Below are positions 35,667 to 49,435 of a DNA stretch of 64,000 nt, piece by piece; position 1 is the first letter of the stretch; each line of letters begins with the position of its first letter. The stretch comes from Lysobacteraceae bacterium. GTDB taxonomy: Bacteria > Pseudomonadota > Gammaproteobacteria > Nitrococcales > AK92. The translations under genes and the position numbers were made by a program. The notes under the pieces were generated by a model. It searched no databases and was not told the origin of the DNA. It saw only the letters and a program-made list of their open reading frames with translations. The DNA lies in contig JAAYIK010000007.1 of NCBI GenBank assembly GCA_012523465.1, positions 1 through 64,000 of the forward strand. Reading direction: 5' to 3'.

Positions 35667-36427
35667 GTTCGCTCCCGTGCCTGCTGCATGCGCGATGCGC
35701 TGAAGTAGCGCCGGATCTCCGGATGCGGGCTGGCGGCCAGAGCGGCAACCGTGTCGGTGGCCAGGACTTTGCCTCCGCTGAGGAAAGCCACTCGGTCGGC
35801 GGTGCGCCAGAGCGAGTCCGGGTCGTGGGTGACCATGACCACGGTGAGATCCAGTAGCTGCTTAAGCTCCAGGATCAGCCTGTCGAAAGCGGCGGCGCCG
35901 GCCGGGTCGAGGCCGGAGGTGGGCTCGTCCAGAAACAGCAGCTCCGGGTCCAGCGCCAGGGCCCGGGCCACCGCGGCACGCTTGATCATGCCGCCGCTGA
36001 GCTCGCTGGGGTAGCGCGCGGCAGCCTCCACTGGCAGCCCCGCCAGTCGCAGCTTAAGCAGGGCTAGCTCCCGTACCAGGCGCGGACTCAGCCGTGCGTG
36101 TTCCATGATCGGAAAGGCGATGTTCTCCAGCACCGTCAGCGAGGTGAATAGCGCGCCGTGCTGGAACATCACGCCCATGCGCCGCCACAGCAAGCGGGCC
36201 GCAGCCATCGACAGGCGCCGCGTAGGCTGTCCGAACAGCACGATCTCGCCACCGGCGGGCCGCTCCAGCATGAGGATTTGCCGTAGCAGCGCCGTCTTGC
36301 CGCTGCCGCTGTCGCCGACGATGGCCAGGATCTCGCCCCGGCGCACCTCGAGGTTCAGGCCGCGGTGGACGATCTTCGTCCCGTAGCGGGTTTCCAGGTC
36401 GTGGACTGCGATCGGCGCTGCGCTCAT
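35651..36427 (-). CDS. MlaF-type ABC transporter ATPase
   Basis: 258 residues. Walker A is GDSGSGKTALLRQI, the Q-loop lies in VMFQHGALFTSL, the signature is SELSGGMIKRAAVARAL, and Walker B is LLFLDEPTSGLDP. The GALFTSLTVLEN stretch is typical of MlaF/Ttg2A proteins. It powers the permease encoded just upstream, whose stop it overlaps by 4 bp. Confidence 0.95.
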   Translation of the reverse strand: MSAAPIAVHDLETRYGTKIVHRGLNLEVRRGEILAIVGDSGSGKTALLRQILMLERPAGGEIVLFGQPTRRLSMAAARLLWRRMGVMFQHGALFTSLTVLENIAFPIMEHARLSPRLVRELALLKLRLAGLPVEAAARYPSELSGGMIKRAAVARALALDPELLFLDEPTSGLDPAGAAAFDRLILELKQLLDLTVVMVTHDPDSLWRTADRVAFLSGGKVLATDTVAALAASPHPEIRRYFSASRMQQARERTWKAE

Positions 36428-37587
36428 AGCTCGAAAATGTTGAAGACAATGGAGAACAGGGCGTCGGCCACGATCACCAGAAAAATGCTGAGAACCACGC
36501 TGGCGGTGGTCGCGCGCCCGACCTCCTCGGCGCTGCCACGTACCCGAAAACCGTGAAAGCAGCCGACCAGCGTGATGATGGCGGCGAACACTGGCGTTTT
36601 GACCATGCCGACCCAGAGCGTGCTGTTTGGCAGCTGGGCCGGCAAGCGTTCCAAAAAGGTGTGGATGCCGATGCCAAGCAGTGACTGGGCCGCCAGCATG
36701 CCGCCTAGTAGGCCGAGGCAGTCGGCGAACACGGTCAGCAGCGGCAGCGCCACCAGCAGCGCGATCAGTTTGGGCAACACCAGGATCTCGAACGGTGCGA
36801 TGCCCATGGTGCGCAAGGCGGCCACCTCCTCGGTGACCTGCATGGTGCCTATTTCGGCCGTGTAGCTGGAGCCGGTGCGGCCGGCGACGATGATGGCGGT
36901 GATCAGGGGCCCCATCTCGCGCAGGATGGTCATCGCCACCAGCTCGACGATGAAAATGCTGGCGCCGTAGCGCTGCAATGGAAGTCCGCCCTGGTAGGCG
37001 ATAACCACGCCGACCAGGAACATCAGCAGCCCGATGATGGGCACGGCGGCGGCGCCAGCACGCTGGATCTCGGCGGCCACCTGGCGCCAGCGGATCCGCT
37101 GCGGCTGCAGCAACAGCGGCTGTGCCTGCAGCGTGCCCTGGCCGAGAAAGGCCAGCAGCTGGAAACCCTGCCGCAGTAAATCGAGCGTGAGCCTGCCCAG
37201 CCTTACTAAAGGGCCGGGCGGTTGGTGCGGAGCGGGCAAGCCGCCCGGCCGCGAGCGGGTCAGCTCTAGCAGCGCGAGATGGTCCGCCGGCACCTGGTGT
37301 GGAACCAGCTCTACGCCGGCGTTTTGCAGTCGTTGCATGAGCTGGTTGAGCAGCAGGGCGCCGGCGCTATCCATGCGCTGGACCGGTGCCGTGCTCAGCA
37401 GCCAGCGGCCGGGCGACAGCTGGAGGCGCTGCAGCGCGGGCTCGACCGCGTGCAGCGCCAGGATGGTCCAGTCACCGCTGCACTGCAGCTGCTGTTCCGC
37501 AGGCAGCACGGAGAATCGCGCCGGTTCGGGCCGAGTGTGAACGTTGTTTGCGATGGCCGCCCCTCCGCTGGTGGGCCGGTGTTGCAC
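36424..37587 (-). CDS. MlaE-type phospholipid permease with N-terminal STAS domain
   Basis: About 387 residues if the GTG at 37587 is used (GGGAG 10 nt upstream); a TTG at 37632 is the other option, so the start is uncertain. Residues 1-110 resemble a STAS domain (MDSAGALLLNQLMQRLQNAG). The rest is an MlaE permease with the signature GRTGSSYTAEIGTMQVTEEV and AALRTMGIAPFE. In E. coli the STAS partner, MlaB, is a separate protein; here it is fused. No mlaC-like gene follows, so this is a three-component core plus a lipoprotein. Confidence 0.88.
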   Translation of the reverse strand: MQHRPTSGGAAIANNVHTRPEPARFSVLPAEQQLQCSGDWTILALHAVEPALQRLQLSPGRWLLSTAPVQRMDSAGALLLNQLMQRLQNAGVELVPHQVPADHLALLELTRSRPGGLPAPHQPPGPLVRLGRLTLDLLRQGFQLLAFLGQGTLQAQPLLLQPQRIRWRQVAAEIQRAGAAAVPIIGLLMFLVGVVIAYQGGLPLQRYGASIFIVELVAMTILREMGPLITAIIVAGRTGSSYTAEIGTMQVTEEVAALRTMGIAPFEILVLPKLIALLVALPLLTVFADCLGLLGGMLAAQSLLGIGIHTFLERLPAQLPNSTLWVGMVKTPVFAAIITLVGCFHGFRVRGSAEEVGRATTASVVLSIFLVIVADALFSIVFNIFEL

Positions 37588-37676
37588 ATCCCTGCTGCTC
37601 CCAATCCTGCCGCTCGCAGTCGCGAGGCGCAACGGTAGCGACCGCCATCATTGCGCCTGTCGCCAGCCGGCGACGC

Positions 37677-37692
37677 TTAGGAGCTCTCCTAG
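37677..37692. promoter_or_regulatory. Dyad 1, TTAGG-N6-CCTAG
   Basis: Half-sites TTAGG and CCTAG are separated by six bases; the core TAGGAG-CT-CTCCTA is a perfect palindrome. It is centred at 37684.5, exactly 23 bp from dyad 2. A dimeric regulator site is the simplest reading. Confidence 0.55.
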
Positions 37693-37699
37693 AGGCGAA

Positions 37700-37715
37700 C
37701 TAGGGACAAGCCTAG
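37700..37715. promoter_or_regulatory. Dyad 2, CTAGG-N6-CCTAG
   Basis: A perfect inverted repeat (ACTAGG/CCTAGT, 37699-37716, 6-bp spacer) with the same architecture as dyad 1. If the -10 is TAGAGT at 37739-37744, the centre falls near -44, an activator position. The response regulator encoded downstream is a natural candidate to bind it. Confidence 0.6.
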
Positions 37716-37738: not shown

Positions 37739-37744
37739 TAGAGT
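37739..37744 (+). promoter_or_regulatory. Candidate -10 of the small-RNA promoter
   Basis: TAGAGT lies 23 bases after dyad 2, with no recognisable -35, as expected of an activated promoter. It would start a transcript near 37751. Confidence 0.35.
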
Positions 37745-37750
37745 TTTTGG

Positions 37751-37866
37751 TGCAAGGACTTCCTGCCGTCATCCCCCCCAAGGCGGCAGGGTCAGCCAGA
37801 GAAGGTGTTGTTCAGGAATGCATCTATGCCATCCATCCGGCGCGGTTCCCGCCGCGCCGTTTTTTT
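37751..37866 (+). ncRNA. Candidate small RNA with C-rich loop and intrinsic terminator
   Basis: No plus-strand gene precedes the strong terminator at 37839-37866, so a short transcript (about 115 nt) is implied. It would contain a 7-bp stem CCTGCCG/CGGCAGG (37762-37768, 37784-37790). The 15-nt loop of that stem carries seven consecutive C. Such loops in known small RNAs pair with Shine-Dalgarno sequences. Two GGA motifs (37756, 37816) could alternatively bind CsrA/RsmA. The 5' end is inferred; an attenuator for the response-regulator gene is the main alternative. Confidence 0.4.
37839..37866 (+). terminator. Orphan plus-strand intrinsic terminator
   Basis: Stem GGCGCGG/CCGCGCC with a 6-nt loop, then G and seven T. 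The reverse strand has no T-run. It lies 113 bp before the response-regulator start, and no plus-strand gene ends upstream of it. Confidence 0.85.
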
Positions 37867-37941: not shown

Positions 37942-37955
37942 TATACTTTCAGTAT
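37942..37955 (+). promoter_or_regulatory. Candidate -10 and dyad before the response regulator
   Basis: TATACT at 37942-37947 is a good -10; it overlaps a small dyad ATACT-TTC-AGTAT. A clear -35 is missing. It would allow the regulator to be transcribed independently of the upstream terminator. Confidence 0.4.
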
Positions 37956-37978: not shown

Positions 37979-38620
37979 ATGGAACAGCGAGCAACTGTCT
38001 ACGTTGTCGACGACGATGCGGCGATGCGGGATTCTCTGTGCTGGCTGCTGTCGTCGGTTTCCTTGAAAGCCAAGGCTTTTGCCAGCGCCGACGAGTTCCT
38101 GCGGGAGTGGGATCCCAATGCCCCCGGGTGCCTGCTGCTGGATCTGCGCATGCCTGGTCTGAACGGCCTGGAGCTGCAGGAGCGGCTGGTTCGGGAAGGC
38201 CACCACATCCCCATCATCTTTCTCTCCGGCCACGGCGATGTGCCCACGGCCGTGCGCGCCATGCAGGCCGGTGCGGTGGAATTCCTCACCAAGCCGTTTT
38301 CCGAGCGCTTCCTGCTGGAGCGTGTGCAGGCCGCGCTCGAGCAGGACGCCCAGCAGCGCAAACAGCGGCGCCAGACCGAGGTGTTGCGAGCCCGTTACGC
38401 CGTGCTGACGCCGCGCGAGCGGGAGGTGCTTCATCTGGTGGTGGCAGGCAAGGTCAATCGGGAAATCGCCGAGATCCTGTCGATCAGCCAGAAGACGGTC
38501 GAGCTGCATCGATCCAATCTGATGAAGAAAATGCACGCCGACTCGATACCCAGCCTGGTTGCTATGTGCCTGAGCATCGACGAGTGCAGGAAGGCGATGG
38601 GGATGGAGCCCCTTCCCTAG
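37979..38620 (+). CDS. FixJ/NarL-family response regulator
   Basis: 213 residues from the ATG at 37979; a longer frame from 37805 would run through the terminator. The receiver domain (about 5-120) has acidic residues VVDDD at 9-13, phospho-acceptor Asp55 in LLLDLRMPG and the conserved Lys in LTKPF. A LuxR-type HTH follows (LTPREREVLHLVVAGKVNRE, then IAEILSISQKTVELHRSNLM). It resembles FixJ-like regulators paired with a soluble kinase, encoded 168 bp downstream. Likely targets are unknown; the dyads upstream are candidates. Confidence 0.92.
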   Translation: MEQRATVYVVDDDAAMRDSLCWLLSSVSLKAKAFASADEFLREWDPNAPGCLLLDLRMPGLNGLELQERLVREGHHIPIIFLSGHGDVPTAVRAMQAGAVEFLTKPFSERFLLERVQAALEQDAQQRKQRRQTEVLRARYAVLTPREREVLHLVVAGKVNREIAEILSISQKTVELHRSNLMKKMHADSIPSLVAMCLSIDECRKAMGMEPLP

Positions 38621-38711: not shown

Positions 38712-38788
38712 GATTCCATAACGAGCAGCCGGCGCTACGGGGCCGACAGGCGCAAGTGCCAGCCTCTGCAGCAGTGTGATCGAATTTG

Positions 38789-40120
38789 ATGAATGAATGG
38801 CTCAGCCCTCGCATCGGCGAGAGGGCGGTTCGAAACCGGCGCATGGAGTCCGACAGCCAACTGGCAACCACGGGGCGCAGCAGGTGTCGCACGGCAGCCT
38901 GGGTGGCGAGCGAGCTGCTGTATCGCGCCGCTTCCATCGCCAATGCCGCCGACAGCACCGATACGGCGGCCAAGAACATCATTCTCGAATTGTGTCAGAC
39001 TGGCCACTGGACCGTCGGCCGTGCCTTCCTGCGTATCAACGGCGAAAGCGCTGAAGGCCCCTGGCTGGTGATATGCGCCGGCACGGGAGTGCTGCCCCCG
39101 GGCTGGCAGGCCGGCGAGCAGCTACTGGCGGCAGGACCGATGAGGCCCGCGCTGGCCCGGATCGCCTGGGAGGAGAACCGCGGCGTGGCTGCCAGCATCG
39201 ACTTCCTGGAAGGGCTGAGCAGCGGCGTGGCGGTGCCAGTGCGCCACTTGGGCCGGGTGCAGGGTGCCATCGAACTGTATGGACCGGGAGCGGTGCCGCA
39301 GGAGCCAGGCTTGCTGGACACGCTGCTGGAGATCGGCGAGCAGCTGGCCCATGTGCTGATGCGCCAGCGGCGCCATCGGGAGGCCTTGCGTCAGCAGCAG
39401 GAGCTGCTGCACATCGGGCGTCTTGCCAGCATGCGCGAGCTGGCCCGCAACCTAGCCCACGAGGTCAACCAGCCGCTGGCGGCCGTGGGCAGCTACGCCG
39501 GTGGTGCCCTCCAGTTGCTGGCGCAGGGACGGGCGGAGCCGGACAAGCTCAAGCGCGCCCTGGAGCAGGTGGGAGTGCAGGCCAAGCGGGCGTCCAACAT
39601 CATCCAGGAGTTTCGGGAATTTCTGCGGCGAGGCGACACCCGGCACGAGCGGCTGGATTTGCGCAAGCTGATCAACGAAACGGCCATGCTGATGGCCAGC
39701 GTGGTGCGCGAAGCCGGCGCCAACCTGGTGGTCAGGCTGCCGCCGGAGCTGCCGGAGATCGAAGGCGACCCGATTCAGCTGCAGCAAGTGCTGATCAATC
39801 TGATCCACAATGCCGTCGAGTCGCTCAGTGGCGCTCCTGCCTCCCGGCGACGCTTGCTGGAGATCGAGGTCGAAGTCGACGAGCAGGTCGAGATTCGGGT
39901 GCGGGATACCGGGGTCGGCATGCCCGGCGAGCTGCTGCCCCAACTGTTCACGCCGTTTCTCACCACCAAGCCGCATGGGCTGGGCATGGGGTTGCCGGTC
40001 AGCCGCTCCATCGTCGAGTTTCATGGCGGTCGCATGAGCGCCGACAACAACCCGGACGGAGGCATGACCTTCCGGGTGCGCCTGCCGCCAGCGCGGTCGC
40101 TGTCTTCCTCGGGGCGGTAA
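38789..40120 (+). CDS. GAF-type sensor histidine kinase, partner of the FixJ-like regulator
   Basis: 443 residues from the ATG at 38789 (an ATG at 38843 is also possible; neither has a good ribosome site). No transmembrane segment is seen, so it is probably cytoplasmic. Residues about 45-190 look GAF-like. The H-box LARNLAHEVNQPLAAVGSYA has His224. The N-box is LINLIHNAVES, and the G-boxes are RDTGVGMPGE and GLGMGLPVSRSIVEFHGG. The dimerisation type resembles FixL/DctB kinases. The signal is unknown. Confidence 0.88.
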   Translation: MNEWLSPRIGERAVRNRRMESDSQLATTGRSRCRTAAWVASELLYRAASIANAADSTDTAAKNIILELCQTGHWTVGRAFLRINGESAEGPWLVICAGTGVLPPGWQAGEQLLAAGPMRPALARIAWEENRGVAASIDFLEGLSSGVAVPVRHLGRVQGAIELYGPGAVPQEPGLLDTLLEIGEQLAHVLMRQRRHREALRQQQELLHIGRLASMRELARNLAHEVNQPLAAVGSYAGGALQLLAQGRAEPDKLKRALEQVGVQAKRASNIIQEFREFLRRGDTRHERLDLRKLINETAMLMASVVREAGANLVVRLPPELPEIEGDPIQLQQVLINLIHNAVESLSGAPASRRRLLEIEVEVDEQVEIRVRDTGVGMPGELLPQLFTPFLTTKPHGLGMGLPVSRSIVEFHGGRMSADNNPDGGMTFRVRLPPARSLSSSGR

Positions 40121-40635: not shown

Positions 40636-40708
40636 CCGCTGGGCACGCTGCGCCTGCCGCGGGCTTTGTCGCTCCGGGGAGAGGCGGCAAGCGCAGCGTG
40701 CCCAGCGG
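40636..40708. repeat. 25-bp inverted repeat (large hairpin) in the gap before the TIGR02587-type gene
   Basis: The arms 40636-40660 and 40684-40708 are complementary over 25 bp with one mismatch (a G-U pair in RNA), around a 23-nt loop. It lies in a 270-bp gap with no gene. There is no T-run. The size and position suggest a dispersed repeat such as a REP or a small MITE rather than a terminator; copy number cannot be seen here. Confidence 0.7.
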
Positions 40709-40805
40709 CAAATCCCGCTCTCCCATCTGGCGCCCCATATCAAAGCCTGATCAAAGTCTATGGGAGTGCGCCGGCGACCGCGGCCGGCGCGCAAGGAGAG
40801 GCAGG

Positions 40806-41624
40806 GTGCAAGACGGGGCTGGGAGTGAATTCTGGCAAGACATGGCGCGCGCCTTTGGCGGGGCGCTGATTTTCGCATTCCCCCTGCTCATGACCATGGA
40901 AATGTGGTGGCTAGGGCTGTATCTGGCGCGCTACAAGCTGGCGCTTTTCGTCATTGCCCTGCTGCCGGTCCTGGTTGGCCTGTCCTATTACGCCGGCTTT
41001 CGTCACACCTTCGACTTCAAGGAAGATGTCATTGATGCCCTGGTCGCGTTTGTGGTTGGTGTGGCGATGGCGGCGCTGTTTCTGACCTTGTTCGGGGTCA
41101 TCAAAACCGGCATGTCGCCAGACGCCATCGTCGGCAACGTCATTCTGCTGGCCGCTCCGGCCAGCATGGGGGCCATCTTGGCCAGCAAGCAGCTGGGGCA
41201 GCTTCAGAACAACGCAAGGGCGCTCCAGCAAGCCCGCTACGCGGGTGAGCTGTTCATCATGATGGCGGGAGCGCTGCTGCTAGCTTTCAACGTCGCGCCT
41301 ACGGAAGCAATCATCCTGATCGCCTACAAAATGACGGCCTGGCATGCGTTGGCGTTGATCGTGGTCACGCTCACCGTCATGCACGTCATCGTTTATACCG
41401 CCGGTTTCCGCGGGCAAAGGCAAACACCGGAGGGGACAACCTTCTGGCGCATGTTTCGGCATTTCACCGTGGTCGGCTACGCCATCGGCGGGCTGGTCAG
41501 CTTGTACGTGCTGTGGACCTTTGAGCACCTGAGCGGTTGTGGATTGCTCGCGGCCGTGCAGACGGTCGTGGTGACGGCGTTTCCGGCCGGAGTCGGAGCC
41601 GCCGTCTCAAGGCTGGTGCTGTAG
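40806..41624 (+). CDS. TIGR02587-family integral membrane protein
   Basis: 272 residues from a GTG at 40806 with AGGAG 8 nt upstream. About seven hydrophobic segments are visible. The sequence (FWQDMARAFGGALIFAFPLL, TMEMWWLGLYLAR) matches the family I know as TIGR02587. It is found as a two-gene operon with TIGR02588, as here (2 bp apart). The function of the pair is unknown. Confidence 0.8.
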   Translation: MQDGAGSEFWQDMARAFGGALIFAFPLLMTMEMWWLGLYLARYKLALFVIALLPVLVGLSYYAGFRHTFDFKEDVIDALVAFVVGVAMAALFLTLFGVIKTGMSPDAIVGNVILLAAPASMGAILASKQLGQLQNNARALQQARYAGELFIMMAGALLLAFNVAPTEAIILIAYKMTAWHALALIVVTLTVMHVIVYTAGFRGQRQTPEGTTFWRMFRHFTVVGYAIGGLVSLYVLWTFEHLSGCGLLAAVQTVVVTAFPAGVGAAVSRLVL

Positions 41625-41626
41625 CC

Positions 41627-42022
41627 GTGGCGGGAAAACAGGGTGTCGGCGAGCCGCCGTTGTGGGAGCGGCTGGTAGCGCTGGTGGGGTCTCTGCTGGT
41701 GCTGGCCTCGGTCGTGTATCTGCTCTATCAGGGAATCTGGGGCGACCATTCGCCGCCTGACATCGTGATCGAGCAGATAGACGTGATGGACAGTGGCGCC
41801 GCCCATCTGGTCCGCTTCCGCGCCCGCAACCAGGGTGGCAAGACAGCGGCCGAGGTGATCGTCCGCGGTGTGCTGGAGCGCGACGGCGAGCAGATCGAAA
41901 CCGCCGAGGCCAGCATCGACTACATACCACCAGGTTCCGAGCAGCAGGGCGGCCTTTATTTCAGCCACGATCCGCGCCAGGCGCAGCTGACCATCGGCGC
42001 TTCCGGCTATCGCCTGCCCTGA
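41627..42022 (+). CDS. TIGR02588-family protein
   Basis: 131 residues from a GTG at 41627, 2 bp after the upstream stop. A single N-terminal transmembrane helix (about 15-35) leads to a predicted extracytoplasmic beta-rich domain (DIVIEQIDVMDSGAAHLVRF, then RARNQGGKTAAEVIVRG), which looks like a small Ig-like or CARDB-type fold. It is the known partner of TIGR02587. Function unknown. Confidence 0.8.
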   Translation: MAGKQGVGEPPLWERLVALVGSLLVLASVVYLLYQGIWGDHSPPDIVIEQIDVMDSGAAHLVRFRARNQGGKTAAEVIVRGVLERDGEQIETAEASIDYIPPGSEQQGGLYFSHDPRQAQLTIGASGYRLP

Positions 42023-45385: not shown

Positions 45386-45737
45386 GCGGGAGTCGGCCGG
45401 ACAGTCGCTGCGTCGGTCTCGGCGCGGAGGAAAGTCCGGGCTCCACAGGGCAGGGTGCCAGGTAACGCCTGGGCGGCGTGAGCCGACGGAAAGTGCCACA
45501 GAAAACAGACCGCCGATGGCCTTCGGGCACAGGCAAGGGTGAAAAGGTGCGGTAAGAGCGCACCGCGCGGGTGGTAACACTCCGCGGCACGGTAAACCCC
45601 ACCCGGAGCAAGACCAAATAGGGGAGCTATGGTGTGGCCCGCACCGCTCTCGGGTAGGTCGCTAGAGGCGCACGGCGACGTGCGTCCCAGATGAATGACT
45701 GTCCTCGACAGAACCCGGCTTACAGGCCGACTCCCGC
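45386..45737 (+). ncRNA. rnpB: RNase P RNA, bacterial type A
   Basis: The catalytic RNA of RNase P, which matures tRNA 5' ends. The conserved blocks GAGGAAAGTCCGGGCTCC, AGGGCAGGGTGCCAGGTAAC, GGTAAACCCCACCCGGAGCA and AGATGAATGACTGTC are all present in order. The 5' end GCGGGAGTCGGCC pairs with the 3' end GGCCGACTCCCGC (helix P1). The length of about 352 nt is typical of type A. It sits between pyrF and the mraZ leader on the plus strand. Confidence 0.97.
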
Positions 45738-45837
45738 CCTTCCTTCCTCGCTTCTCCCTTTCCGACCCCACCACCCGTCCCGCTTAGCCGTGGCCTTTGA
45801 ACGGTCTTTAGCATTTTTTTCTAAGCGAATGATTTGT

Positions 45838-47707: not shown

Positions 47708-49435
47708 ATGCTGCGCGATGCTCAACAGGAAAAATCCAGCCTGCCGCCTGCTTGGCGATCGGCCGCGCTGCTGCTCGGCTTCGGTCTGTGCGCCTGCATC
47801 CTGCTGGGGCGGGCGGTGGATCTGCAGGTGCTGGACAAGCAGTTCCTGCAGACCCAGGGCGACGCCAGGCACCTGCGGGTGGTAGAGATTCCGGCGCATC
47901 GCGGCGCGATCACTGACCGCAACGGCGAGCCGCTGGCGAGCAGCTCGCCGGTCGATTCGGTGTGGGTGAACCCGAAGGAATTTCTTGCCGCCGGAGCGGA
48001 CAGCCACGAGCTGGCGCGACTGCTGGATCTGGAGCCGCGTCTGTTGGAGCGGCGCATCCGCGAGCGAGCCGATCGCGAGTTCCTGTACGTCAAGCGCCAC
48101 GTTCCGCCTGATCTGGCCGAGCGGGTCATGGCGCTGAAGCTGCCGGGGGTATCGCTGGAGCGTGAATACCGGCGCTTCTATCCAACTGGAGAAGTGGCGG
48201 CGCACGTGGTCGGATTCACCGACATCGACGACCGCGGCCAGGAGGGCATGGAGCTCGCTTATGACCAATGGCTGCGGGGCGAGCCTGGGGCTAAGCGCGT
48301 GGTCAAGGACCGCTACGGCCGTATCATCGGCGACGTGGAGAGTCTGCGCGAGCCGCGCCCCGGCAAGGAACTGCGGCTGAGCATCGACCGCCGGCTGCAA
48401 TACCTGGCCTATCGCGAGCTGAAGGCGGCCGCCCTCGAGCAGCAGGTGCGAGCGGCGTCGCTGGTGCTGCTCGACGTCACCACCGGGGAGGTGCTGGCCA
48501 TGGTCAACCAGCCCGGCTACAACCCCAACAATCGTGCCGAGCTGAGCGGCCAGGTCGTGCGCAACCGCGCCGTCACCGATGCCTACGAGCCGGGCTCCAC
48601 CATCAAGGTGTTCTCGGTGGCGGCGGCGCTGGAGTCGGGCCGGTTCCGCCCCGACACCATCATCGACACCGGCCCGGGCTACATGCGGGTGGGCAATTAC
48701 ACCATTCACGATACCCGTGCCTTCGGCAAGATCGATGTCAGCACCCTGATCCAGAAGTCCAGCAACATCGGCGTGGCCAAGATGGCGCTGGAGCTGGAGC
48801 CGGAAACGATCTGGGATACCTACGTCAGGCTGGGCTTCGGTTCGCCGCCGGGAACCGGTTTCCCAGGCGAAGCCTCGGGACTGATGCCGCCGCGGCCGCC
48901 GCAGCGCCCCGCTGAGCGGGCAGCCTTGGCCTATGGCTATGGCCTGTCGGTCACGCCGCTGCAGCTGGCTAGCGCCTATGCCACCATCGCTGCCGACGGC
49001 GTTCGGCGGCCGGTGTCGTTCCTGGCCTTGCCGGAGCCGCCGACCGGCGAGCAGGTGATCTCACCGGAAGTGGCCCGGCAGGTGCGGGCCATGATGGAGA
49101 TGGTGGTGGCGGAGGGGGGTACCGCGCCGCAGGCCCGGGTGGCTGGCTATCGCGTCGCCGGCAAGACCGGCACGTCCCGCAAGGCCATCGCCGGCGGTTA
49201 CGACGACAAGGCACACCTGGCCTATTTCGCCGGCTTCGCGCCGGCCAGCAAGCCGCGGCTGGCCATGGTGGTGGTGCTGGACGAGCCCAGCGCGCATTCC
49301 TACTACGGCGGTCGCGTAGCCGCCCCCGTCTTCAGCCGGGTGATGAGCGGCGCCCTGCGCCTGCTCAACGTGCCGCCGGACGATCTGCCCGGACTGGGCA
49401 GCTACGTCGCCAGCATCGGGGGGGTGAGACAATGA
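47708..49435 (+). CDS. ftsI: Peptidoglycan transpeptidase FtsI (PBP3)
   Basis: 575 residues. An N-terminal transmembrane helix (about 18-38) precedes the pedestal domain and a transpeptidase domain. The active-site Ser-x-x-Lys is in EPGSTIKVFSV, Ser-x-Asn in QKSSNIGVAK and Lys-Thr-Gly in VAGKTGTSRKA. It makes septal cross-links together with FtsW. The stop overlaps murE by 4 bp. Confidence 0.98.
   Translation: MLRDAQQEKSSLPPAWRSAALLLGFGLCACILLGRAVDLQVLDKQFLQTQGDARHLRVVEIPAHRGAITDRNGEPLASSSPVDSVWVNPKEFLAAGADSHELARLLDLEPRLLERRIRERADREFLYVKRHVPPDLAERVMALKLPGVSLEREYRRFYPTGEVAAHVVGFTDIDDRGQEGMELAYDQWLRGEPGAKRVVKDRYGRIIGDVESLREPRPGKELRLSIDRRLQYLAYRELKAAALEQQVRAASLVLLDVTTGEVLAMVNQPGYNPNNRAELSGQVVRNRAVTDAYEPGSTIKVFSVAAALESGRFRPDTIIDTGPGYMRVGNYTIHDTRAFGKIDVSTLIQKSSNIGVAKMALELEPETIWDTYVRLGFGSPPGTGFPGEASGLMPPRPPQRPAERAALAYGYGLSVTPLQLASAYATIAADGVRRPVSFLALPEPPTGEQVISPEVARQVRAMMEMVVAEGGTAPQARVAGYRVAGKTGTSRKAIAGGYDDKAHLAYFAGFAPASKPRLAMVVVLDEPSAHSYYGGRVAAPVFSRVMSGALRLLNVPPDDLPGLGSYVASIGGVRQ

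Follow-up and report, generated by a model that had tools for sequence, protein, structure and literature searches.

What does a strong intrinsic terminator end when no gene precedes it on its own strand? This question is raised by the noncoding block between the divergent mla operon and the gene of a FixJ-type response regulator in the 64-kb window, that is, the whole stretch of DNA analysed here. The terminator (37838-37859, plus strand) consists of a 9 bp stem (8 GC) and a loop of 4, followed by a T7 tract that ends at 37866. Two overlapping terminator matches were found against 0.4 expected from shuffles of the region, and under a stricter scan the 64 kb contain, besides the site at 37838, only one other strong terminator (63514). 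The gene upstream of the block, which encodes an MlaE/STAS protein (MlaE-type permease; 36424-37632), is on the minus strand. A first-pass annotation of this DNA is thus confirmed on two points, the strong plus-strand terminator and the absence of a plus-strand gene ahead of it. Its central proposal, an independent small RNA situated between operator-like dyads and the terminator beside a response regulator, is supported by the conservation of position, pairing and core in three genomes. The features of the locus are the following.

37677-37692, no strand assigned: upstream operator-like dyad TTAGGAGCTCTCCTAG, 1 mismatch to the pattern; aligned in G001, weaker in G003
37700-37715, no strand assigned: downstream operator-like dyad CTAGGGACAAGCCTAG, exact pattern match, centre about -43 from the putative start
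37739-37744, plus: -10-like TAGAGT (TAGTCT in G003) without a -35, from alignment and sequence inspection
37750-37866, plus: putative sRNA of about 117 nt with a predicted start, delimited by the conserved block and the terminator
37761-37791, plus: hairpin SL1 with an AUC7AA loop, from folding; pairing kept in G001 and G003
37795-37835, plus: conserved core GCCAnnGAnGGU...GAnUGCAUCUAUGCCAUCCA, from the alignment of relatives
37815-37834, plus: small hairpin SL2 (GGA..GCA-UCUA-UGC..UCC), from folding; weak, forms in all three RNAs when folded alone
37819-37835, plus: 17-mer TGCATCTATGCCATCCA without any change across G000, G001 and G003, a candidate seed
37838-37866, plus: intrinsic terminator and T7, from the terminator scan
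37942-37947, plus: TATACT, likely the regulator's own -10 (TATACT in G001, TATAAT in G003)
37979-38620, plus: FixJ-type response regulator (Response_reg and GerE domains; 94% identity in G001, 87% in G003)
38786-40120, plus: FixL-like histidine kinase (HisKA and HATPase_c domains)

The comparison set comprised the source genome (G000) and two MAGs, bin23 (G001) and bin31 (G003), labelled Ectothiorhodospiraceae. In both of these, the divergent mla operon, the noncoding block and the FixJ-type regulator are kept together; the order mla, sRNA, regulator, kinase is found in G003, and the G001 contig has the same order. All three genomes share the tandem dyads, the weak -10, the hairpin pairing, a 17-nt core and the terminator, the closing pair of which varies between C-G, U-A and G-U. 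The core, UGCAUCUAUGCCAUCCA, is identical in G000, G001 and G003 while the four-fold sites of the neighbouring gene show only 42-49% identity, and it is therefore under strong selection. At the sequence level, this comparison shows the block to be an evolutionarily constrained, terminator-ended noncoding unit, and the block is very probably the gene of a short regulatory RNA with what appears to be its own transcription. A coding role for the core was rejected given that the long open frames that run through it differ in frame between G000 and G001 and that the frame of the regulator stops short of it in G003.

Hairpin SL1 comprises 10 bp, including two G-U pairs (arms 37761-37770 and 37782-37791), that close the loop AUCCCCCCCAA; the hairpin and its seven C reported in the first-pass annotation are real, and the stem is longer than the 7 bp given there. 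Its folding is equalled by 1 of 1000 shuffles, and the entire 116-nt stretch has a folding z-score of -2.6, with 2 of 200 shuffles equally good. Counted outward from the loop, the SL1 arms differ from those of G000 at 7 positions in G001 and at 11 in G003, and all 8 inner pairs nevertheless stay canonical, an outcome reached in 0.2% and 0.04%, respectively, of trials with equally many random substitutions; these figures are drawn from three homologues and presume that there are no indels, the register being set by the fold where a sequence alignment puts gaps in the arms. The retention of SL1 pairing through sequence change is thus supported but not proven. Compensatory stem changes together with a conserved C-loop had been suggested as a test of the RNA; under the same no-indel assumption, both are seen between the two members of the genus, and the C-loop is absent from G003.

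The C-rich loop itself takes the form (A/G)UC5-7AA within the genus (C7 in G000, C5 in G001) and is UUCG in the third genome. Because it is shared only within the genus, the functional heart of the RNA is probably the core rather than the C-loop; the view of the C-rich loop as the defining element is not supported, and it may instead serve as a second pairing site at the genus level. Since part of the invariant 17-mer is taken up by SL2, in which UCUA forms an open loop, the mean unpaired probability predicted for the 17-mer reaches only about 0.4-0.5. An exact scan for the 17-mer across 84,980 species recovered both known relatives; the 38 further matches are apparently due to chance, and their number is near the chance expectation. 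Limited pattern searches for near-complements of the core yielded sites inside or antisense to coding sequence and no start-codon site supported in the relatives. Against the mRNA of the regulator or of the kinase, the RNA pairs no better than shuffles do. The C7 of SL1 is the only run of at least seven C on the plus strand of the window; the only plus-strand G7 run, at 49418, is in principle a possible partner for it.

With respect to transcription, the promoter scan detected no sigma-70 consensus pair ahead of the putative RNA; of the plausible activated promoter envisaged in the first-pass annotation, what stands are the tandem dyads and the weak -10-like TAGAGT (37739-37744), about 23 bp downstream of the second dyad. 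The dyads are CTAGG-N6-CCTAG inverted repeats that lie 22-23 bp apart in all three genomes; they are exact or have one mismatch in G000 and G001 and have two mismatches each in G003, the downstream one having an exact counterpart in G001. Among the 28 sites listed in G000 with at most one mismatch, they form the sole non-overlapping close pair, and dyad sites elsewhere in the three genomes lie in contexts that do not match. Dyad centres at about -43 and -66 are a usual position for activators of the family to which the FixJ-type regulator belongs. A dyad in G003, CTAGGACCATCCCTAG (L123:1501-1516, G003:C7), lies about 170 nt upstream of a gene that, as judged by eye, is RsbR-type STAS stress-protein-like and is possibly a further target of the regulator in that genome.

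The reading that we consider the best explanation, and hold to be probable, is that the block is a FixJ-activated gene of a trans-acting sRNA of about 117 nt. Under this proposal, the FixL-like kinase, the kinase half of which resembles FixL at a score far under the cut-off of that family, would phosphorylate the adjacent FixJ-type regulator. The phosphorylated regulator, assumed from the adjacency of its gene to bind the tandem dyads, would occupy them as two dimers, centred at about -43 and -66, and would bring RNA polymerase to a promoter that lacks a -35. The resulting RNA, assisted by Hfq, would act on target mRNAs via the invariant segment that immediately precedes the terminator, with SL1 as a stabilising 5' hairpin; within this genus, the C-rich loop of SL1 may offer a second site for pairing. 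As expected of an Hfq-dependent sRNA, Hfq is encoded in the genome and the RNA would end in a U-rich tail (T7).

Several other explanations have to be weighed against a trans-acting sRNA. The block might act as an attenuator of the regulator-kinase operon, a 5' leader whose terminator works conditionally, possibly controlled via a leader peptide, NTG-CAT-CTA-TGC-CAT-CCA. The terminator indeed stops about 112 nt short of the regulator start, and in each of the three genomes a possible start codon (ATG, GTG or TTG, one per genome) immediately precedes the invariant block (37818-37835); nevertheless, the putative peptide shows no variation at any of its five wobble positions, and in G000 and G001 it lacks a well-spaced ribosome-binding site upstream. 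Furthermore, a pairing test of the 5' arm of the terminator found no mutually exclusive antiterminator, the best upstream pairing reaching -10 to -12 versus about -20 kcal/mol with the arm's own partner. Given the lack of a strong antiterminator and the separate -10-like box (TATACT/TATAAT) between terminator and regulator in the three genomes, we regard attenuation as unlikely. That the conserved DNA consists of protein-binding sites and the terminator only shields the divergent promoters of mla and the regulator from each other would fit the DNA palindrome GCAT-CT-ATGC within the invariant block, but the pairing kept through sequence change, along with the conserved promoter-operator layout upstream, points to RNA and leaves this option very improbable.

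The remaining alternatives accept an RNA and assign it a different mode of action. Unpaired C7 and C5 in loops of matching form in G000 and G001 would suit a C-rich loop that acts as the main effector and, in the manner of the 6C and B11 RNAs, pairs with G-tracts or Shine-Dalgarno sequences; given the UUCG loop of G003, the much lower conservation of the loop than of the core, and the two such loops carried by B11, this appears distinctly improbable. In the GacA-RsmY/RsmZ systems, a LuxR/FixJ-family regulator and an upstream dyad accompany a short RNA with a terminator. This likeness, drawn in the first-pass annotation, holds for the layout, an activated-promoter arrangement next to a LuxR/FixJ-family regulator, and the genome also contains csrA; it does not extend to the mechanism. 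The two GGA motifs noted earlier are present in the 116 nt (near 37757 and 37815) at roughly the chance number, the counts in the three RNAs are 2 (G000), 4 (G001) and 2 (G003), no GGA lies within a hairpin loop, and the locus matches no Rfam Rsm or Csr family even at E 10. Sequestration of CsrA/RsmA, as by RsmY/RsmZ, is thus the least probable of the explanations.

The claim in the first-pass annotation that no described RNA has such an arrangement goes too far. The sRNA gene crcZ adjoins the gene of its activating response regulator, CbrB, as a separate transcription unit (PMC8871633), and C-rich-loop sRNAs are represented by B11 and 6C, with B11 showing that such loops function (PMC10470900). 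In view of these precedents, the locus is a lineage-restricted new example of a known arrangement. In common with CbrB-CrcZ/CrcY of Pseudomonadaceae, it combines a response regulator gene with an adjacent, terminator-ended noncoding unit in conserved synteny, which would likewise be transcribed independently; in contrast, CbrB-CrcZ uses a sigma-54 promoter and its RNA titrates Hfq/Crc, whereas the FixJ-type regulator (Response_reg, GerE in Pfam) lacks a sigma-54 activation domain. Unlike the actinobacterial 6C RNA and B11, which have two C-rich-loop hairpins, the RNA has one in G000 and G001 and none in G003, and the loop is not conserved beyond the genus. The Rfam families ncS025 and suhB/MmgR show sub-threshold similarity, mostly across the terminator (13-22 bits versus gathering scores of 46 and 41), and differ in the core. 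If the proposal is correct, a FixJ-family regulator has a dedicated adjacent sRNA, and an undescribed RNA family is added, the conserved core of which is precisely defined and open to mutation testing; the literature searched contained no sRNA study of this group.

Clear regulator orthologues were found only in G001 (94%) and G003 (87%), the other matches listed in the order falling below 50%; the fourth family genome (G002) has neither an orthologous regulator (best match 44%) nor the RNA, such that the two co-occur in three of the four family genomes compared. The best regulator match among 369 genomes of the class is 56%, and the best regulators outside the family, at 52-56% identity, lie directly behind their kinase gene, leaving no space for the RNA. 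In a covariance search, as advocated in the first-pass annotation, run over 369 Gammaproteobacteria, the hits inspected were only terminator or coding look-alikes; no homologue of the RNA was found outside the family, and the plasmid collection gave no match. A bolder version of the proposal, in which this single sRNA is the main dedicated output of a lineage-specific FixLJ-like system and acts via an invariant UCUA-hairpin/seed absent from described RNA families, strikes us as doubtful.

At Rfam gathering thresholds, there is no match at the locus, and the only match in the window is a complete RNase P class A RNA gene (45389-45738). Downstream of the kinase, a DUF2391 (TIGR02587) membrane protein is followed by a TIGR02588-like protein (40698-42019), both of unassigned function.
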